From assembly GCA_025774205.1 (NCBI GenBank), contig JALGWK010000002.1, positions 1-40,220 on the forward strand: a stretch of DNA of 40,220 nt, written 5' to 3'. A model generated the notes under the pieces. That model worked only from the letters and a program-made list of their open reading frames with translations. It was not told the origin of the DNA and made no database searches. The number at the start of each line of letters is the position of its first letter. Positions within the stretch are counted from its first letter, which is position 1. Below are positions 1,706 to 30,100 of the stretch, one piece after another. A program made the translations under genes and the position numbers. The stretch comes from a bacterium (lineage in GTDB: Bacteria; Blakebacterota; Blakebacteria; Blakebacterales; Blakebacteraceae).

Positions 1706-1798
1706 GCGGTCATGGCTCCGAATGCTTGATCCCGGTCTTCAGGCACCAGGCGCAGTATATCATATCCTCAGGGTTGTCTCCTCACGAACATCAGGTAT

Positions 1799-2797
1799 TT
1801 ACGGAACGAGAACGGCGTCTCCCGAGATCGCGCTCGATTTCATCTTCCGCAGCGCCTCGTTCGCCTCTTCGAGGGGGAAGGGTGAGGTCTCGGTCCTGAT
1901 CGGGATCATCGCGGCGTACTCCAGCAGTTCCCGACCATCTTTCCTGGTGGCGTTTGCCACGCTCCTGATGACCTTTTCATCCCAGAGATGGGGCAGGTAC
2001 TCCATCTCGGGGATCGGTGTCATGAAGATGCCGCCCAGGACGAGGATGCCGCCGCGATCGAGCATCCTCAGGGCCGGCGGCACGAGCTGACCGGCCGGGG
2101 CGAACATGATCGCCGCATCGAGAGGGAAGGGGGGTTCTTCCGGCACCCTGCCCACCCAGACCGCTCCCAGTTCCTCCGCGTGACGCTGGTGATCGGGATC
2201 GCGGGTAAAGACAGCAACCTCGCAGCCCAGGTGTCGGGCGATCTGGATGGTCACGTGGGCCGAGTTGCCGAAACCGTACAAACCGATCCGCTTCCCCGCC
2301 CCGGGCTCCGTATGCCTGAGAGCGCGGTATCCCACGATCCCGCCGCAGAGGAGCGGGGTCGCCTCCACAGACCCGATTCCCTCAGGAATCGGATAGGTCC
2401 ACGCTTCCCCGACCACGATCGATTCGGCGTATCCTCCATCCACATCCCAACCGGTGAAACGACCCTCCCGGCAGAGGTTCTCACGCCCGCTTCGGCAGAA
2501 CCGGCAGGTTCCGCACGTCCCGTACAGCCAGGCGATACCGGCCCGGTCGCCGATCGTGAACCGGGTGACACCCGCGCCGAGCGCTTCGACCCTCCCGACC
2601 ACCTGGTGTCCGGGGATGATCGGTCGCTTCCGCAGTTCGAAATCACCCTCGATGGTATGCAGGTCGGTATGGCAGAGGCCGCACGCCTCGATCGTGATCC
2701 TGATCTCACCCTCGCCCGGGTCGGGGAGCTCGACCTCTTCCAGCCTGAGCGGTGCTGTCTCTACCGGAGCCTGCTCGTGCAGAACCATCGCGCGCAT
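1799..2797 (-). CDS. Zinc-dependent alcohol dehydrogenase (MDR family)
   Basis: A 332-residue medium-chain dehydrogenase/reductase. Visible zinc ligands: Cys42 in CGLCHTD and His64 in PGHQ for the catalytic zinc, with a further Cys in LLCGG; the four-cysteine structural zinc loop is C95-x2-C98-x2-C101-x7-C109 (CGTCRFCRSGRENLC). The Rossmann glycine motif is GLYGFGNSAH, typical of the subgroup annotated as zinc-binding alcohol dehydrogenase family protein. It should interconvert an alcohol and aldehyde with NAD(P)H in the cytoplasm; the substrate cannot be told. Start at 2797 is chosen because GAGGTG sits 6 nt upstream; an ATG at 2851 adds 18 residues without family similarity. It is divergent from the propeller gene at 2970, sharing a 170-nt intergenic region. 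Confidence 0.92.
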   Translation of the reverse strand: MRAMVLHEQAPVETAPLRLEEVELPDPGEGEIRITIEACGLCHTDLHTIEGDFELRKRPIIPGHQVVGRVEALGAGVTRFTIGDRAGIAWLYGTCGTCRFCRSGRENLCREGRFTGWDVDGGYAESIVVGEAWTYPIPEGIGSVEATPLLCGGIVGYRALRHTEPGAGKRIGLYGFGNSAHVTIQIARHLGCEVAVFTRDPDHQRHAEELGAVWVGRVPEEPPFPLDAAIMFAPAGQLVPPALRMLDRGGILVLGGIFMTPIPEMEYLPHLWDEKVIRSVANATRKDGRELLEYAAMIPIRTETSPFPLEEANEALRKMKSSAISGDAVLVP

Positions 2798-2877
2798 CAC
2801 GATCACCTCATAACCCCTCTTTGACTCCTCTTCCCTGCCTCTGTGACTCATCTTCAGTCTAATAAATATAGAGAGGT

Positions 2878-2906
2878 TTGAATACCGATCCGGATGTTTC
2901 TATAAT
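2878..2906 (+). promoter_or_regulatory. Sigma70-like promoter for the propeller lipoprotein
   Basis: TTGAAT (2878-2883), a 17-nt spacer and a perfect TATAAT (2901-2906), about 64 nt upstream of the start codon at 2970. It lies in the AT-rich divergent region between the alcohol dehydrogenase and the propeller gene. Read from sequence only; transcription is inferred. Confidence 0.65.
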
Positions 2907-2969
2907 CGATTCACCCCCCCCCTGGTGTATTCATCATCCCCCCGATGAGAAATACAACCGAGGATCATC

Positions 2970-4235
2970 ATGTCCCTTGCCCGTTCATCGCTGTCAGCTT
3001 CATGTGCCGCCCTCCTCCTGCTCCCCGCCTGCTCGACAGAGAATGTCTCAGGCGGACACCGGTTCTCGATCATCGAAGAGGCGGGGATCCCGACCGCGGT
3101 GACTGAAGGAGGACCGCGGTTCGAGGGAGAGCTGTTCCGATATGAGCACATCCTGACCCTTCAGGAAGATCCCGCAAATGTAGAGTCCCTCCTCTCCCGG
3201 CCAGTGGTCTTCAACCGGGATGAAGCGGGGCGGTACCATGTCCTCGATCCAACCCAGGGACGGATCGCAGTGTTCGATCCCGAGGGTCGGTACCTCCACA
3301 CCTATGGCCGGAAGGGTGATGGACCGGGAGAGTTCAGAAGTCCGGCCCTGCAGTATGTCAGGAAGGGTGTCGTCTCCATCTGGGATTACACCAACGCCCG
3401 CACGACCCGCTTCACCAGCGGCGGAGAGCTGATCGATACCGTCCGGAAACCGCTCGACTTCGAGTACAATCTGAGAGGTCTTTTCCATACCGGAACGGGT
3501 GGATTGGTGGGCATTCAGCCATTCGCGTTCGTTCCGGATTCAACCTGGGTGAAGTGCCGGATGTGGAATGGAGCTGGGGATATCCTGGCGACGATTGAGA
3601 CTCCCCTTCGTATTGAGAACGTGAGACGCTCGATTCCCGGGTCCGACCGAACCCGGCCGGTATACATTCCCTACGGCTGTGTCCCGTCTGCTGCCTATCA
3701 CTCTGACCTGGGTACACTGGTGAGCTCCGGACACGAACCGGTTCTCACCTGGTACGATGACCGGGGCGATCCAACGCGCCGGATACGGATACCGTGTCTC
3801 AATAACACTCTGACCGATGCGGACCGGGAGAGGTACGACCGTCTCTGGTCGGAGAGGCGTGAGCGGTTCCCTGAACGAGCCGGCGAAATCAGGGTTTACG
3901 GGGATCCGGCTCTCCTGCCCGACAGGAAAGCCTGCTGGACTTACATCCATATCGATGACGCCGGTTACCTGTGGCTGCGCACCTCCGATCCTATCTACTT
4001 CGATCTCCTGCTTCCCGAGGGGCAGACGTACCACCTGCTCGACCGTGAGGGGGGGTACCTTGGAATCACCCGTACTCCGCAGGTCATCAGCGAGATCTCC
4101 CAGCAGGTCTATCTCACGCCGGTCTCGGTCGCGGATGGATACTTCATGGGTATCTCACAGGATCCCGAGACCGGAGCGAATCTCATGAAGGTCTATCGTA
4201 TGGTGCCGGTGGCGGAAGGTTTCAGGTATCCCTGA
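2970..4235 (+). CDS. 6-bladed beta-propeller lipoprotein
   Basis: 421 residues. The N-terminus is a lipoprotein signal with lipobox LLPAC (Cys21), so the protein is probably anchored in a membrane facing the periplasm. The body has NHL/YncE-like blade repeats: a strand of type GRYHVLDPTQGRIAVFDPEG, then GRKGDGPGEFRSP, the motif seen in the large 6-bladed beta-propeller family of Gemmatimonadota and Bacteroidota. GAGG lies 6 nt before the ATG. It resembles the products at 13428-14606 and 16232-17473, so the window holds three paralogs. Such proteins are usually of unknown function; ligand or protein binding is inferred from fold only. It is convergent with the small lipoprotein gene at 4236, with no gap. 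Confidence 0.85.
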   Translation: MSLARSSLSASCAALLLLPACSTENVSGGHRFSIIEEAGIPTAVTEGGPRFEGELFRYEHILTLQEDPANVESLLSRPVVFNRDEAGRYHVLDPTQGRIAVFDPEGRYLHTYGRKGDGPGEFRSPALQYVRKGVVSIWDYTNARTTRFTSGGELIDTVRKPLDFEYNLRGLFHTGTGGLVGIQPFAFVPDSTWVKCRMWNGAGDILATIETPLRIENVRRSIPGSDRTRPVYIPYGCVPSAAYHSDLGTLVSSGHEPVLTWYDDRGDPTRRIRIPCLNNTLTDADRERYDRLWSERRERFPERAGEIRVYGDPALLPDRKACWTYIHIDDAGYLWLRTSDPIYFDLLLPEGQTYHLLDREGGYLGITRTPQVISEISQQVYLTPVSVADGYFMGISQDPETGANLMKVYRMVPVAEGFRYP

Positions 4236-4331
4236 TCATCCAGGTGGCTGACCGACGAACCTACTGCTTGAGGCGCAGGCAGCGAGCAGGAGCAGCCCTG
4301 ATGTGATCAAGAGCAGGTTGACGTTCTTCAT
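4236..4331 (-). CDS. Tiny lipoprotein, 31 residues
   Basis: A short reading frame 18 nt downstream of the kinase stop. The product starts MKNVNLLLITSGLLLLAAC: a Lys-bearing n-region, a leucine-rich h-region and lipobox LAAC with Cys19, followed by only 12 more residues (ASSSRFVGQPPG). The signal is too regular to be chance, so I think it is translated, or is the surviving head of a longer lipoprotein. GAGA lies about 8 nt upstream. The stop abuts the end of the convergent propeller gene. The kinase ends in CsgG/FlgO-like domains, and genes for that family often sit with small lipoproteins, so a functional link is possible but inferred. Confidence 0.55.
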   Translation of the reverse strand: MKNVNLLLITSGLLLLAACASSSRFVGQPPG

Positions 4332-4349
4332 GATCTATCTCGTGGAATG

Positions 4350-6806
4350 CTATCGATAGTAGTCTGCAAGTTCTTCAGCGATCTTCCTGGTGGCGATCTG
4401 TAAAACAGCCTCAATCCCCTCAGCATCGGCAATGGCGGTATGCTCGATCCTTGATGAGGCGGGTTCCATTATCCGTATCTGAATTGAGTAGATCGTCCCC
4501 ACCCTGGTTATGCTTCCAGCTACCATTCTGGAGACTCCAAGTATCTGCCCGACCTGCACGACGCTTTCATCGGAATTAGCTGCCCCGGATGACTGAAACC
4601 CGATTTCGTTCAGAATCGACTCCATCTGATTCCGCTCGATTATTTCAAACGCGTCGTCCTGCCCCAGGTAATATCGTAACCGTTGAGTGATGGCCCTTGA
4701 TTCTGAGTCAGACACTCCAACGGGATCAAGATCTAGCACTCCAATGGATAGTGGCTGTGAGCTAAGAGATGTTGTTTCGATTCTCTGCCATGTTTCAGAT
4801 TTCAGAGTAGCATCGGTGAGATCTGAGGCTGTTTCCCGGGTTGCATCCGTTAATACTACTGATATCCCATCGACGTCTCTGAAAGCTTCTGAGACAACTC
4901 GAGCGGTGGCGATTTCAACTAGACGCACCTGAAGACTGTAAAGGCTCCCGATCTTAGAAATGCTCCCGCCTGCCATGTATTGAGCACCGAGGATTTGACC
5001 AGCTTGAACGAGTACCTCGTCGGTGTTGCATGCTCCCTCTATCTGGAATCCCAGTTCATGGAGTATCTCCTCCATTCGCGTGCGTTCGAGCACTTCGAAC
5101 AACTCCTGTCGATCAATCCATATGCGGAACCGTTCGGTAATTGCCTTTGCTTCACCCTCGTCCAGGTTGTTCGCTTCGAAATCAACAACGCCGATAAGTG
5201 TCCTTGCTGATGCTGGATTATGGTAAACAGCATAGCTGTTTTGACTTCGATCTCCGAATTCGTTGACCAGTGTTATGCGGATGTGATGACGGCCAGCGCC
5301 ACCAAGGGTAATCTGCTCCTCAATGACCTGATTCTGGTCAGAACCGGTCGGTCCGAAGACCTGGATAGAATCATCGACAGCAATGGTCAGTCTGGCGACG
5401 CGTCCCCGGGGCTCAATCTGGATCATGATCGGTACCGATGACGACGTGACATACGATTCCGGGATAGGTGAGACCACCTGGATAGTACCGGCTTCGTTTA
5501 CCGGGACAGGTTCCGCTGGAATGATTCCTGTACTGCTCCCCGAGATCAGCAGGGCCATGAGACTATCGTATTGGGCCTGCATCTGGATGAGTTCGGGTGA
5601 GAACTCATCACCTCCCGCCAGCTGTTGATCTCCTGTACTCCTTTCACTGGCCAGCAAGGTCTGGAGACTGTCGACCCTGTGGCTCAGACCGGACAATTCC
5701 CCGAGGTACGCCGCAATGGTCTGTAACGCCCTTTCATCCTTGGTTGCCAGCCGGTCTCCCTCCTGGCGAATTGAATCGAGTGCCGCGGCAACAGCGGGAT
5801 CGAGGTCGGGCAGGCTTCCATCCTGACTCCGGCCGGGACCGAATCCGAAATACCAGCTGGTGAACACCGCGAAGACCAGGGTGGCGCCAATCAGACCTCC
5901 CCGCCAATTACGACCCGCCGGCTTCCTCTCCCTGGGCGCTAAGGAGGCCCTGCGGGATGTGGATCCACGTGATCCGGGAGTGACAGAATCCATCTTCAGC
6001 CGTCCGATATCAGCGGCAATTTCATCGGCGTGCTGGCAGCGGAGGGAAGGATCCTTGGCCATGAGCTTGGAGATGATCTGGTCCAGGGCCGGGGAAATGT
6101 CCCGGCGATATCGATACACCGGATCAGGCTCATCGTTCAGGATGGAGAAGTAGATCGCGCCGGCATCGGGGCCCTGGAATGGCTGGTGACCTGTCAGTAG
6201 TTCATAGAAGGTGGCTCCAAGCGAGAAGAGATCTGAGCGGCGGTCAATCTCACGCCCTGTTATCTGCTCCGGGCTCATGTAATTGACGGTACCGAGCGTC
6301 GCCCCTGAGGCGGTCAGACGGGTCTCGCTCTCAAGATGCGCCAGGCCGAAGTCGGTGATCTTGAGATGTCCGGAACGGGTGATCATCAGGTTGTCAGGTT
6401 TGATATCCCGGTGGATGACGCCGTTCCGGTGGGCTTCCGCCAGACCGTCAGCAGCCTGGTTGATCCAGCCAAGGATATCTTCGAGCGGAAGGCATCGACC
6501 CTGGACATCATCCAGACGATCCCGCAGAGATCCGCCATCAATAAACTCCATTGCGATATAGAGGCGTCCGGCGTCCTCACCGATCTCATACACCTGGGCA
6601 ATGTTAGGATGTATCAGACGAGCCGCCGCCTTTGCTTCCTGGATGAACCGGGCCTTGTCCGCCTCGTTCTGGGTAGCATGGTAGGGAAGCAGTTTGAGGG
6701 CTGCGGGGCGATCGAGATTGATATCCTCGGCGAGCCAGACTTCTCCCATCCCGCCACCACCGAGTTTTTCCCGGATCGTGTAATGTCCCAGTGTCTGGCC
6801 TTCCAT
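4350..6806 (-). CDS. Membrane Ser/Thr kinase with tandem CsgG/FlgO-like domains
   Basis: 818 residues from the ATG at 6806 (MEGQTLGHYTI is the usual family start; no clear ribosome site). Residues 8-270 form a complete Hanks kinase: glycine loop GGGGMGEVW (16-24), Lys38, Glu57, HRDIKPDN with Asp134, DFG Asp152, and GTVNYMSPEQ. A linker leads to one membrane helix near 302-322, then Gln/Leu-rich coiled-coil-like sequence (about 335-430), an Ig-like segment (about 440-530), and two homologous domains from about 540 and 690. Each has (V/L)DF/L at its start, the pattern LFEVLERTRMEEILHELGFQ, then GQILG and a SLYSLQVRLVE-type strand, as in CsgG, FlgO and LpoB relatives. Inferred topology: cytoplasmic kinase, outside sensor or assembly module. 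A terminator separates it from the upstream operon. Confidence 0.88.
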   Translation of the reverse strand: MEGQTLGHYTIREKLGGGGMGEVWLAEDINLDRPAALKLLPYHATQNEADKARFIQEAKAAARLIHPNIAQVYEIGEDAGRLYIAMEFIDGGSLRDRLDDVQGRCLPLEDILGWINQAADGLAEAHRNGVIHRDIKPDNLMITRSGHLKITDFGLAHLESETRLTASGATLGTVNYMSPEQITGREIDRRSDLFSLGATFYELLTGHQPFQGPDAGAIYFSILNDEPDPVYRYRRDISPALDQIISKLMAKDPSLRCQHADEIAADIGRLKMDSVTPGSRGSTSRRASLAPRERKPAGRNWRGGLIGATLVFAVFTSWYFGFGPGRSQDGSLPDLDPAVAAALDSIRQEGDRLATKDERALQTIAAYLGELSGLSHRVDSLQTLLASERSTGDQQLAGGDEFSPELIQMQAQYDSLMALLISGSSTGIIPAEPVPVNEAGTIQVVSPIPESYVTSSSVPIMIQIEPRGRVARLTIAVDDSIQVFGPTGSDQNQVIEEQITLGGAGRHHIRITLVNEFGDRSQNSYAVYHNPASARTLIGVVDFEANNLDEGEAKAITERFRIWIDRQELFEVLERTRMEEILHELGFQIEGACNTDEVLVQAGQILGAQYMAGGSISKIGSLYSLQVRLVEIATARVVSEAFRDVDGISVVLTDATRETASDLTDATLKSETWQRIETTSLSSQPLSIGVLDLDPVGVSDSESRAITQRLRYYLGQDDAFEIIERNQMESILNEIGFQSSGAANSDESVVQVGQILGVSRMVAGSITRVGTIYSIQIRIMEPASSRIEHTAIADAEGIEAVLQIATRKIAEELADYYR

Positions 6807-25775: not shown

Positions 25776-26738
25776 ATGAACTACGTTTTCGGACCGGTAC
25801 TGTCGCGACGGCTCGGACAATCGCTCGGAGTCGATCCCATCCCGCAGAAGACCTGCAACTGGAACTGCGTCTACTGCCAATTGGGGAGAACCACCCCGAT
25901 AACCGACCGGGTCGAGGAATACTACCCGCGGGAGGCAATCGTTGTCGAGGTCGAGGAGGCGGTCCGGACGCACGGCAGATCGAAGATCGACTGGGTGACC
26001 TTCGTCGGGTCGGGTGAGCCGACGCTGCACTCCGGGATCGGCTGGATGATCCGGGAAGTGAAGGAACGGACCGGTCTTCCGGTGGCGGTTATCACGAACG
26101 GTTCACTTCTGTATATCCCTGAAGTCCGCCGGGCGCTCCTGCCGGCCGGGGTGGTCCTGCCCAGTCTCGATGCCGGCAGCGAAGCTCTCTTCCGGAAGAT
26201 CAACCGGCCCCACCCGGAGTTCACATTCGAACGACTGGTCGACGGGCTGGTCTCTTTCAGCGGGGAATATGACGGTCGACTCTGGATCGAGGTCGTTCTG
26301 ATATCGGGATTGAACGATTCAGAGGAGGCACTGCGCGATCTGGCAGAGGTCATCAGTCGGATCGGTCCCGACCAGGTCCACCTGAACCTGCCCACCCGGC
26401 CGCCGGCGGAATCGTGGGTGGAACCGGCCCCGGAGGAAGGGATCGTCAGGGCCCGGTCGATCCTGGGTGATGTCGCTCACGTCTTCCATGGGGTGGAGGG
26501 AACCCACGAGCTCAGCGGGTTCGATGATGTTGTGGAAGCGATCCTCGACATCATCGGCCGCCATCCGATGAGCGAGAAGGAACTGACGGCCGTCCTCGAG
26601 GCATGGTTCCCGGGGGAGGTCGAAGACGCGCTCACCGACCTGGCCGCCAGCGGCCGGGCCCACGTCGTGGAGCGCTACGGTGACCGCTTCTGGAGCGGCT
26701 CTGATCAGACCTACTCCGATACTCCTGCAGACAACTGA
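25776..26738 (+). CDS. Radical SAM protein, COG0731 (TYW1-like) family
   Basis: 320 residues. The SAM-cluster motif is Cys27-x3-Cys31-x2-Cys34 in KTCNWNCVYCQLGRT, as in the COG0731 group related to wybutosine enzyme TYW1. Then WVTFVGSGEPTLHSGIG, AVITNGSLL, LPSLDAGSEALFRKINRPH and WIEVVLISGLND. The last 70 residues look like a small winged-helix (MSEKELTAVLEAWFPGE). The bacterial members' substrate is not established. No ribosome site is obvious. Its 3' side faces the orphan sdhB-end remnant. Confidence 0.85.
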   Translation: MNYVFGPVLSRRLGQSLGVDPIPQKTCNWNCVYCQLGRTTPITDRVEEYYPREAIVVEVEEAVRTHGRSKIDWVTFVGSGEPTLHSGIGWMIREVKERTGLPVAVITNGSLLYIPEVRRALLPAGVVLPSLDAGSEALFRKINRPHPEFTFERLVDGLVSFSGEYDGRLWIEVVLISGLNDSEEALRDLAEVISRIGPDQVHLNLPTRPPAESWVEPAPEEGIVRARSILGDVAHVFHGVEGTHELSGFDDVVEAILDIIGRHPMSEKELTAVLEAWFPGEVEDALTDLAASGRAHVVERYGDRFWSGSDQTYSDTPADN

Positions 26739-26758: not shown

Positions 26759-26800
26759 GAAAGAAAACGCCGGATGGAGCGAACCCCCCATCCGGCGTTG
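26759..26800 (-). terminator. Orphan terminator, duplicate of the sdhB terminator
   Basis: Perfect 12-bp stem AACGCCGGATGG (26767-26778) with CCATCCGGCGTT (26789-26800). On the minus strand a T-rich tract (TTTTCTTTC) follows, so it works leftward. It matches in layout and partly in sequence the terminator behind sdhB at 29163-29203, but here no gene leads into it. Confidence 0.75.
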
Positions 26801-26865
26801 TCGAACGAGAACACTCTTTCCTGGACCGATGCTACTCGGCCGGTGAGACCGCTCCTTCGATCGTG
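26768..26865 (-). repeat. Flanking repeat, copy A (sdhB end plus terminator)
   Basis: About 98 bp collinear with 29171-29267. Both hold a CGCCGGATGG-headed terminator, a diverged 36-38-nt spacer, and TCGGCCGGTGAGA followed by a segment ending TCGATCGTG. Outside the spacer roughly 53 of 61 positions agree. The two copies flank the toxin-antitoxin pair as direct repeats. Confidence 0.7.
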
Positions 26866-26870
26866 TCAGG
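26832..26870 (-). pseudogene. Remnant of an sdhB 3' end (12 codons)
   Basis: On the minus strand these bases read PDTIEGAVSPAE and stop. The true SdhB ends PEFTIDGAVSPAEQP. Reading frame, stop position within two codons, and distance to the following terminator all match, but nothing upstream resembles sdhB. Inference: a truncated copy left at an insertion boundary. Confidence 0.65.
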
Positions 26871-26902
26871 CTATCAAGTCGATGAATTGATATAATAAAC
26901 AT

Positions 26903-26980
26903 AGTGTAATTAATATCACATATTGATACTTGACGCATATGCGACAGCGTAATATTATAAAACAAGTGCAATTAATAGCA
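26903..26980 (+). promoter_or_regulatory. Toxin-antitoxin promoter with putative operator repeats
   Basis: TTGACG (26930-26935), a 17-nt spacer and TATTAT (26953-26958) form a good sigma70-like promoter about 37 nt before the antitoxin start. The palindrome CGCATATGCG (26934-26943) overlaps the -35 edge. Two 16-bp direct repeats of pattern AGTGYAATTAATAKCA (26903-26918 and 26965-26980, 14/16 identical) bracket the promoter; the first also has dyad symmetry (GTG...CAC). AbiEi antitoxins are known to repress their own promoter through repeats; assignment here is inference. AAAGGA lies 6 nt before the ATG. Confidence 0.6.
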
Positions 26981-26994
26981 GTAAAGGATATTAA

Positions 26995-27822
26995 ATGCAT
27001 AACATAAGTAATCGCGCATCACTCAAAGGGCTCGGTGAATCTGAACGTGAGATCCTGTCGGCATTGGCCGCGTTGGAACAACCGACACTTTCGGTGGATG
27101 AAGTCCTGGACCTCTTCGACCTGAGCCGTCAGGCGGCAAATCTGATGCTCTCCCGCCTGGCCCGCAAGGGTTGGCTCCGACGATTGCGTCGAGGTGTTTA
27201 TACGATTGTGCCACTCTCCTCATCGTCCAGTCAGCCGGTGGTTGAAAACCCGTTGACCGTAGCAATGAGATTGTTCAAGCCGTGTTACATCTCAGGCTGG
27301 ACCGCGGCCGAACACTGGGACCTGACAGAACAGATCCATAATGTCGTGGTTGTTTACAGTTCCACGCCTCAGCGAAAGTCAATACAGGAGATAGGCGGGG
27401 TGAAGTACCGGATTCGCCGTGTTCCCGAGGAGACCATTTTCGGGACCATCAGACTCTGGTACGGCAGAGTACCTGTTCAGATGGCAAGTCCGGAGCGGAT
27501 GATCATCGATATTCTCAATGCGCCCGAAATGGGAGGGGGCAGCCGTCAGACACTTGATATCGTGCGCGCCTACTGGAGAGGAGCACGGAAGGATCCGGAA
27601 AATCTGATGTCCTGCGCCGAGAAACTGGGGCGGGGGAGTGTATTCAAACGACTCGGCTTTACCGCCGAGTTGTTCGGTGACCCTGATCCCGGGTGGACGG
27701 ATCGATGCCTGCATGGTCTGACGAAAGGGATAGCACTGCTTGATCCTTCCGGCCCCAGAGGAGGGCCGACAGCCTCACGCTGGCGTCTTCGAATCAATGT
27801 CCCCCTGGAGGATGGTTCGTGA
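26995..27822 (+). CDS. abiEi: AbiEi-family antitoxin / transcriptional regulator
   Basis: 275 residues. N-terminal winged helix (about 20-75: PTLSVDEVLDLFDLSRQAAN, LMLSRLARKGWLRRLRRGVY), then the AbiEi C-terminal domain (YISGWTAAEHWDLTEQI, VVVVYSSTPQRK, YRIRRVPEETIFG, MASPERMIIDILNAPEMGGG). In AbiE systems this protein neutralises the AbiEii toxin without binding it and represses the operon. Its stop overlaps the toxin start by 4 nt. The upstream region is clearly more AT-rich than the rest of the window, a sign of transfer. Confidence in family is high; activity not shown. Confidence 0.88.
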   Translation: MHNISNRASLKGLGESEREILSALAALEQPTLSVDEVLDLFDLSRQAANLMLSRLARKGWLRRLRRGVYTIVPLSSSSSQPVVENPLTVAMRLFKPCYISGWTAAEHWDLTEQIHNVVVVYSSTPQRKSIQEIGGVKYRIRRVPEETIFGTIRLWYGRVPVQMASPERMIIDILNAPEMGGGSRQTLDIVRAYWRGARKDPENLMSCAEKLGRGSVFKRLGFTAELFGDPDPGWTDRCLHGLTKGIALLDPSGPRGGPTASRWRLRINVPLEDGS

Positions 27823-29060
27823 TCCCGAAGGCTGAAGTCATGGCTATCGCTGAGGAACTCGAACTGCTCCCCACCACGATCGAGAAGGACTATGTCCTGG
27901 GATGGGTACTGTTCGCTGTCGCGGCACACCCCGATCTAAGTCTCTGGATCTTCAAAGGTGGGACCTGTTTGAAGAAATGCTATTTCGATACCTACCGATT
28001 CTCTGAAGATATCGATTTCACGGTTCCATCTGAGGCTCCATATGATATCGAGGCAATTCACACATCTCTGCAGGAAGTGAGTGGTTGGGTTTACGATCAG
28101 GCCGGTATCGAGTGCCCGGATGATGGGCTCCAGATCTCCGAATCAGTCAACAGGCGGGGAGAGTCGACTTTTCAGGCGAAATTGACGTATCTGGGTCCAC
28201 TCGGGATGCCTCGTGCATCCCGCCAGCGGATCAAGTTCGACCTGACCATGGATGAGATCGTCGTAGACTCCTCAGTACCTCGGGAAGTCTTCCACGGTTA
28301 TTCGGACGGATTACCGTTGGCAGAAATGGTGAGCTGTTACAGTGTCACCGAGATTCTGGCTGAGAAAATACGTGCTCTGTATGAACGAGAGGGGAGAGCA
28401 CGGGATGTATATGACATTGTCAATATCGGTCGAAATCTGCGTGAAGAGATTCCGGACGAGGATTTCCATGCTGCTGTAAATGAAAAGTTCAGGTTCAAGG
28501 ATCTGGAAAAACCCACGGTCGAGGGGATCCTGAGCCGGGTGGATGCGGAGGTTCTGGCACGTGACTGGTCCGAGTCGCTGAAACATCAACTCCCGATGCT
28601 GCCCCCTGTGGAGGAGTATCTCAAAGCTCTGGAAGATATCCTCCGGTGGTACCTCACGGAGGTAGCCCAACCGGAACTTGAATCAGTGCCTGGTGGTGTT
28701 AACGAGACATTAATTCCGCGGATTCCATTCATACAACCCCTGGCAGCCGGCCGTCTGGGGCGTGGACATCCCATGAGTGTCGGCGATTACCCGGCATTGG
28801 TTTTCGGGGGAAGTATGGAGAGAGTCCGGTTCGCGGCCCGAAATCGACTACTTGTGCAGGTAATGTACAAGGGTGTTCCAAGGCTCGTTGAACCGTATTC
28901 ACTCAGAATGCCGTCCACCGGCAAGCTGTTGCTTTATGTCCATGAGGTTCAGCGTGGATATCAGTCAACTGGTCAGATCAAGGCGTTCAAGGTGGCAGAA
29001 CTCGGTCAAGTCAATGTCACCGATCAGGCGTTCTTCGCCAGGTATCGGGTTGAATTGTAG
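27819..29060 (+). CDS. abiEii: AbiEii-family nucleotidyltransferase toxin with WYL-like tail
   Basis: 413 residues, GTG start with GGAGG 7 nt upstream, overlapping the antitoxin stop by 4 nt. The nucleotidyltransferase part (1-300) has all AbiEii/MenT motifs: FKGGTCLKK (Gly47-Gly48), SEDIDF with Asp64 and Asp66, KFDLT with Asp141, and VTEILAEKIRALYEREGRARD with Lys183 and Arg195-Asp196. Classical AbiEii is about 300 residues; here about 80 more form a C-terminal module (about 330-413): FAARNRLLVQVMYKGVPRLV, EPYSLRMPSTGKLLLYV, then IKAFKVAELG and a final ARYRVEL. The R-x-V-E-P-Y-x-L and K-A-F-K-V pattern resembles WYL ligand-sensing domains. Relatives of AbiEii transfer nucleotides to tRNA or other acceptors. 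Confidence 0.88.
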   Translation: MIPKAEVMAIAEELELLPTTIEKDYVLGWVLFAVAAHPDLSLWIFKGGTCLKKCYFDTYRFSEDIDFTVPSEAPYDIEAIHTSLQEVSGWVYDQAGIECPDDGLQISESVNRRGESTFQAKLTYLGPLGMPRASRQRIKFDLTMDEIVVDSSVPREVFHGYSDGLPLAEMVSCYSVTEILAEKIRALYEREGRARDVYDIVNIGRNLREEIPDEDFHAAVNEKFRFKDLEKPTVEGILSRVDAEVLARDWSESLKHQLPMLPPVEEYLKALEDILRWYLTEVAQPELESVPGGVNETLIPRIPFIQPLAAGRLGRGHPMSVGDYPALVFGGSMERVRFAARNRLLVQVMYKGVPRLVEPYSLRMPSTGKLLLYVHEVQRGYQSTGQIKAFKVAELGQVNVTDQAFFARYRVEL

Positions 29061-29162
29061 GTTGGGCACTTCAACTGTCGGTTGCCACCGGCGGTATCCG
29101 ACAGTCTATCAGGCAATGGCCACAGAATAATATGAGGTTCTCTCAGGGGCTGGAATACAATG

Positions 29163-29203
29163 ACAAAAATACGCCGGATGGAGAGGAACCTCCACCCGGC
29201 GAT
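29163..29203 (-). terminator. Terminator of the sdh operon
   Basis: CGCCGGATGG (29172-29181) pairs with CCACCCGGCG (29192-29201), one G-U wobble in the minus-strand RNA, extended by AG/CT inside. On the minus strand ATTTTTG follows. It lies 27 nt after the sdhB stop. Confidence 0.75.
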
Positions 29204-29267
29204 CGGTCGTGAGTTGATGTCTTCGGACTATGGCTGTTCGGCCGGTGAGACTGCCCCGTCGATCGTG
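29171..29267 (-). repeat. Flanking repeat, copy B (true sdhB end)
   Basis: The native partner of copy A at 26768-26865: the sdh terminator, a short spacer and the last 13 codons of sdhB. Similarity between the copies stops inside sdhB just after GATCGTG. Confidence 0.7.
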
Positions 29268-30100
29268 AACTCGGGCGCTTCGGCGATCCCTTCCCGGCGT
29301 TCGGTGGCCCGTCTCTCCTTCGGCAGGAGACCGACCGGCTTCTGGTGCCGCCGCTTGCCGAGTCGGATGTAATCCCAGACCAGTTCGCGCTTCATCAACT
29401 GGATGGCGCGGGCGGGATCGACTCCCTTCGGACAGACCGCCGAGCATTCTCCGGCGTAGTGACAGCGCCAGGGACCGATCTCGCTCGAGAGGATCTTCTT
29501 CCGTTCCTTGAAGGCGCCGTCCCGGGTGTCGATCAGGTAGCGGTAGCCCTGGGTCAGCGGCATCGGGCCGCTGTAGATATCATCGGTCGCGAGCGTCGGA
29601 CAGGCCGCCATGCAACAGCCGCACTTGATGCAGTAGGCGAACTGCAGGTAGGCGGTCAGGTCGTCGGGATCCTGCCAGTACTGGTCGGTCGGTTCGAGAA
29701 CTTCCTCGACGTCCTCGCGGATGATGCGGGTGTTCAGCTTCAGATGTTTCTCCAGCATCGGGGCGAGGTCGGGCACCAGATCGCGGACGATATCGAAGTT
29801 GGGCAGGGGGGCCACCATCAGGATTTCTTTCGTCAACTCCCGGACCTGGGTGTGACAGGCCAGGTGGGGCTTGCCGTTCAGTAGCATGCCGCACGAGCCA
29901 CAGACACCCATCCGGCATGAGGAACGCCAGGCCAGGGTCGGATCAAGGTGTTCCTTGATGTACCACAGCCCGTCGAGTACCACCATGCCCGGTCCGCAGG
30001 GGACCGTGAAATCCTCGAAATACGGTTCATCATCCCTGGCAGGATCGTAGCGCCTGACACGGAAGATGTAATTCTGAAGCTGTTCAGTCTCGTTGCTCAT
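29228..30100 (-). CDS. sdhB: Succinate dehydrogenase/fumarate reductase iron-sulfur subunit
   Basis: 290 residues from the ATG at 30100, with GGAGG 7 nt upstream. [2Fe-2S] ligands Cys62, Cys67, Cys70 and Cys82 (SCRMGVCGSCGMLLNG, then HLAC); [4Fe-4S] motif Cys157-x2-Cys160-x2-Cys163 ending Cys167-Pro (CIKCGCCMAACP); [3Fe-4S] motif CHYAGECSAVCPKG. It carries electrons from the flavin of SdhA to quinone at the membrane anchors. Last gene of the leftward sdhA-C-D-B unit. Its last codons and terminator are duplicated at 26768-26870. The C-terminal tail beyond about residue 250 (KKRRHQKP-type basic stretch to PAEQP) is a longer extension than in many SdhB. Confidence 0.95.
   Translation of the reverse strand: MSNETEQLQNYIFRVRRYDPARDDEPYFEDFTVPCGPGMVVLDGLWYIKEHLDPTLAWRSSCRMGVCGSCGMLLNGKPHLACHTQVRELTKEILMVAPLPNFDIVRDLVPDLAPMLEKHLKLNTRIIREDVEEVLEPTDQYWQDPDDLTAYLQFAYCIKCGCCMAACPTLATDDIYSGPMPLTQGYRYLIDTRDGAFKERKKILSSEIGPWRCHYAGECSAVCPKGVDPARAIQLMKRELVWDYIRLGKRRHQKPVGLLPKERRATERREGIAEAPEFTIDGAVSPAEQP

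Follow-up and report, generated by a model that had tools for sequence, protein, structure and literature searches.

The window analyzed here, a stretch of 40,220 nucleotides, carries an abiEi/abiEii gene pair between the working sdhB and a displaced second copy of the sdhB 3' end. The locus is best read as an ancient and immobile defence island that occupies the 3' end of sdhB. Although this general kind of insertion is already known, the target gene is new: to our knowledge, sdhB is not among the gene 3' ends that serve as targets for islands. The first-pass annotation did not regard sdhB as a well-known insertion target, and a search of open-access papers with a single set of terms yielded no report of sdhB as an integration site. 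Within the phylum, our comparison set consisted of four genomes, namely, the window genome (G000), a sister species of the same genus (G001), and two members of the same family (G002 and G003).

Results

In the window, the radical SAM gene and sdhB converge, with abiEi and abiEii (26995-29060, + strand) in between (Table 1). A direct repeat of about 115 bp, comprising the last sdhB codons and a hairpin terminator, flanks the pair on both sides. One copy (29165-29290) belongs to the working sdhB; the other (26761-26870) is displaced, with its terminator only about 25 bp from the end of the radical SAM gene (26738). When the two copies were aligned, the diverged repeat described by the first-pass annotation was recovered as two arms, one at 26761-26797 and 29165-29201 (81% identity; spacing, 2404) and one at 26831-26865 and 29233-29267 (86% identity; spacing, 2402). 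The local alignment score of 88 is far above the maxima of 28 for the shuffled pair (200 shuffles) and 42 for the shuffled 10 kb behind sdhB (20 shuffles). Both copies retain a hairpin terminator on the sdh strand. The reading frames also correspond to the earlier description, in that one copy completes sdhB with EFTIDGAVSPAEQP-stop at 29228 and the other encodes only PDTIEGAVSPAE-stop (minus strand, 26870-26832; 12 codons and a stop) before its own terminator. Scanning the site for tRNAs and Rfam families gave no match.

Table 1. Features of the sdhB-abiE-radical SAM region (window coordinates)
Feature	Coordinates	Strand	Evidence and remarks
Radical SAM gene	25776..26738	+	Pfam Radical_SAM; orthologues adjoin sdhB (G002, G003) or remnant (G001)
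Displaced sdh terminator copy, distal	26766..26799	-	14-pair hairpin, T-rich tail; repeat
Displaced sdhB 3' end (PDTIEGAVSPAE-stop)	26832..26870	-	Repeat; longer in G001 (L118:5856-5916)
abiE promoter region, AT-rich	26866..26994	+	28.7% GC; alignable with G001
abiEi, antitoxin/putative autorepressor	26995..27822	+	Pfam AbiEi_4 1.7e-9, PADLOC AbiEi 6.7e-71
abiEii, nucleotidyltransferase toxin	27819..29060	+	Pfam AbiEii 5.3e-36, PADLOC AbiEii 4.4e-105; 4-bp overlap with abiEi
Terminator copy of working sdhB	29172..29201	-	13-pair hairpin, T-rich tail
Duplicated 3' end of working sdhB	29228..29290	-	About 20 codons, by comparison with G001 remnant
Working sdhB	29228..30100	-	Fer2_3 and Fer4 domains; 90% identical to G001, 80% to G003

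The empty site that the first-pass annotation had proposed to look for is present in both other members of the family. In G002 and G003, the radical SAM gene has sdhB as its convergent neighbor, with one sdhB end and no abiE; only a few bases separate the two stop codons in G002 (L033), and about 90 bases separate them in G003 (L032). The sdhB-end sequence of the repeat has exactly two occurrences in each of G000 and G001, and none was found in G002 or G003 when up to 3 mismatches were allowed.

The sister species G001, an independent assembly, carries the same scar on two contigs. Contig C265 contains, in order, the radical SAM gene, a small lipoprotein-like open reading frame (ORF), a terminator, the remnant, abiEi, abiEii, hsdM, a GIY-YIG gene, an HTH gene, and the contig end. 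Contig C144 runs from a gene fragment through an SbcD/Mre11-like nuclease and an SMC/LmuB-like ATPase in two frames to the working sdhB, behind which the hairpin terminator is absent. The abiE pair of G001 is orthologous to that of the window, and its remnant, GIARAPEFTIEGATSPAE-stop, is longer than that of G000, at about 20 codons. Comparison of the copies past the terminator (TGTATTCCAGCCC versus TGTAATCCAGCCC in the G001 remnant) gave a similarity that is not significant (P of about 0.06). Since the two flanks are neighbors in the other three genomes, we infer that the ends of C265 and C144 belong to one island, which would then measure at least 10 kb. The metagenome-assembled genomes (MAGs) of G000 and G001 are both incomplete, with the middle part of the G001 island missing from the assembly. 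The additional G001 cargo includes a type I methylase (HsdM), the SbcD/Mre11-like nuclease, and the SMC-like ATPase; a search of G000 for HsdM and the SbcD-like gene found neither. The first-pass name, a toxin-antitoxin island, therefore holds for the AbiE pair and covers only part of what the site contains, the cargo of G001 being larger.

Some further features of the G001 contigs may be mentioned. The ATPase gene (L031:1783-4426) consists of overlapping frames at 1783-3168 and 3137-4426, reflecting a frameshift or an assembly error. The lipoprotein-like ORF (L118:6092-6628, + strand) is located between the radical SAM gene and the terminator of the remnant, has no family match, and is absent from the window. 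HsdR_N/HsdS was considered as a bridge between the two contigs and rejected, because the sole HsdR_N match belongs to a separate type I system beside an SprT-like gene. This HsdR, a second type I restriction subunit (L145:6425-9713, - strand), is encoded in two frames followed by the SprT-like metallopeptidase gene and is unlinked to sdhB. A 177-amino-acid fragment at the start of L031 resembled the C terminus of a type I restriction subunit by eye, and no library confirmed this.

Synonymous divergence between G000 and G001 is 0.59 for abiEi and 0.72 for abiEii, similar to that of the radical SAM gene (0.76), sdhB (0.75), and sdhA (0.64). Given that the abiE genes have thus diverged as much as the genes that flank them, the insertion predates the split of the two species; on this comparison, it is an old event rather than a recent acquisition. 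The dN/dS of abiE (0.12 to 0.13) indicates that the pair is kept under purifying selection. Among 30 shared codon bases of the repeat, 3 sites group the copies by genome and 0 by position, which is a faint sign that the two repeats of a genome have exchanged sequence with each other, although only three sites, two of them adjacent, are involved.

Consistent with the first-pass annotation, no integrase is present in the island of the window. The Phage_integrase and Resolvase families were searched in the four genomes, and none of the matches in G000 and G001, whose gene neighborhoods were read, is connected to sdhB; Phage_integrase also has matches in G002 and G003. The recombinases examined in the two MAGs were XerC/XerD-like proteins in housekeeping contexts, transposon-like copies, one fragment, and one CcrB-like serine recombinase. 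The latter, a large serine recombinase encoded on an unrelated contig of G001 (L149:8123-9670, - strand), adjoins an apparently truncated gene. A short YRLRWGS-coding sequence recurs at the contig end, and another insertion may lie there. At the sdhB site itself, neither an attP nor a recognizable short core was found, and the sdhB-end sequence is absent from the virus contigs searched.

Outside the phylum, scanning the DNA behind sdhB at 68 loci from other lineages turned up no duplicated gene end; the only similarity was low-complexity or GC driven. Likewise, none of 78 sdhB loci of other lineages has an abiE homologue.

The two genes between the repeats had been called AbiEi and AbiEii from the letters of the sequence, and Pfam and PADLOC agree with this assignment. 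AbiEi has the N-terminal HTH expected of the antitoxin (AbiEi_4 over its cutoff and the PADLOC AbiEi model), and the motif residues of the toxin, RFSEDIDF and RDVYDI, are present in the AbiEii of the window. The best full-length plasmid relatives of AbiEii, from Rhizobium and Thiodictyon, are 36 to 38% identical. AbiEii had no matches in phages, and none was found in the virus contigs searched with it. The front of abiE is indeed unlike the rest of the window, with a GC content of 28.7% at 26866-26994 versus 61.0% for the window as a whole, and this segment is among the 28 lowest in GC of 40,091 windows of the same length. It contains a promoter-like site (26930-26958) and, read by eye, two similar 16-bp direct repeats (26903-26918 and 26965-26980), each overlapping an inverted repeat (at about 26914-26928 and 26974-26992). 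By eye, the 16-bp repeats are at corresponding positions in G000 and G001.

Discussion

The sdhB locus has much in common with E. coli icd, where the e14 element has displaced the 3' end of the gene and duplicated 165 bp with 12 substitutions (PMC11148124; PMC6379469). As with e14 and the lambdoid phages that use the same site, the insertion lies close to the 3' end of a gene for a metabolic enzyme, a diverged replacement end of similar length is found (165 bp in e14 versus about 115 to 150 bp here), and the original end survives as a pseudogene fragment at the opposite border. Two features expected of an island of the e14/icd type are present, namely, borders that both carry the 3' end of a reconstituted target gene as a direct repeat, as they do in G001, and an empty site in relatives. 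However, e14 is a prophage with an integrase, whereas the present island lacks both phage genes and an integrase; in addition, the repeat includes the terminator and its copies are much more diverged. Given the missing integrase, we do not file the locus as an integrase-driven island; it only looks like an old one. SGI1-like and other islands at the 3' ends of trmE, dusA, prfC, and guaA likewise carry defence or toxin-antitoxin cargo and leave the host gene unbroken, but their att cores are short and their integrase can be identified.

The reading that we favor, and to which we would give about an even chance, is that an abiE-bearing element entered the 3' end of sdhB in the ancestor of the genus with the help of a site-specific recombinase that was lost later. 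In this scenario, the element's own version of the last 20 or so codons and the terminator would have been joined to sdhB, and the original end and terminator would have been pushed toward the radical SAM gene, in the manner of e14 at icd. The recombinase would have made the junction before it disappeared, and the immobile island may have been maintained because its genes are useful, AbiE serving as a type IV toxin-antitoxin pair that regulates its own expression. At this site, the sister species has, or has retained, a larger set of defence genes. As the copies are old, a short identical core would not be recognizable. Retention of both the sdhB reading frame and a terminator suggests that the insertion was probably neutral for the host. 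Of the earlier proposal that an element inserted and brought a replacement end, the insertion at the sdhB 3' end is supported by the empty sites and the sister scar, but its attribution to a site-specific element is not, as no recombinase, attP, or core accompanies it.

The missing integrase and the inclusion of the terminator in the repeat could also be explained by homology-facilitated illegitimate recombination, which we consider a real, if less probable, competitor. In this case, linear DNA of a relative that carries abiE behind its sdhB would recombine seamlessly within sdhB and raggedly at its other end, inside the last codons, leaving the same footprint: the donor end works, the recipient codons and terminator stay behind as the remnant, and an integrase is unnecessary. 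Such recombination is experimentally known in transformable bacteria, and orphaned 3' ends at type VI secretion system (T6SS) loci of Vibrio have been proposed to be its products (PMC5361080; PMC3240628). The immunity arrays at those loci resemble the present case in having a displaced old 3' end downstream of acquired genes and no integrase, but there a new effector end is gained, whereas here sdhB keeps its function and sequence. On the other hand, these events are described as rare, the donor must already have carried abiE behind sdhB, and additional events would be required for the larger cargo that G001 has there. The precedent of e14, the length of the repeat, and the defence-type cargo of the sister species lead us to favor the recombinase.

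It is improbable that the remnant derives from a decayed tandem duplicate of sdhB, with abiE having moved in or alongside later. The longer remnant in G001 would fit ongoing decay, but even this remnant has only about 20 codons, and in both species the remnant passes directly into the abiE promoter region; moreover, a second sdhB body is found in no relative, and G002 and G003 have a single end. An assembly artefact or chance similarity, conceivable given that these genomes are fragmented MAGs, is already refuted by the same scar in the independent assembly of another species, with a repeat score far above shuffles.

The window holds AbiE alone, versus AbiE with the type I methylase and the SbcD/SMC genes in G001. 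Speculatively, defence islands of this phylum might attach repeatedly at the sdhB 3' end with the aid of a recombinase, cargo being exchanged over time and the two sdhB ends being homogenized by exchange within each genome; we regard this as rather doubtful.

With sdhB, a core respiratory gene joins those genes whose ends can take up an island while their function is preserved. The two-species case allows the insertion to be dated relative to speciation, in a phylum sample of four genomes, and it illustrates how a defence locus can persist after it has lost the ability to move. A displaced gene end with its terminator is a usable marker for islands that have no integrase.

As judged from its sequence features, the cargo of the window is an ordinary AbiE type IV toxin-antitoxin pair. 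It shares with such systems the order abiEi-abiEii, the 4-bp overlap, the HTH antitoxin, the nucleotidyltransferase toxin, and an AT-rich promoter with paired repeats. The repeats upstream of abiEi are putative AbiEi operator sites. Both copies differ in the same way between the species (AATTAATA in G000 versus TGTTAATA in G001), and it looks as if operator and AbiEi have co-evolved. Nothing notable sets the locus apart from other AbiE systems except the toxin of G001 (L118:3665-4906, - strand), which reads RFSENLDF at residues 60 to 67 versus RFSEDIDF in the window. Since an Asn thus replaces the first Asp of the DxD motif in the MAG consensus, the G001 toxin may be inactive.
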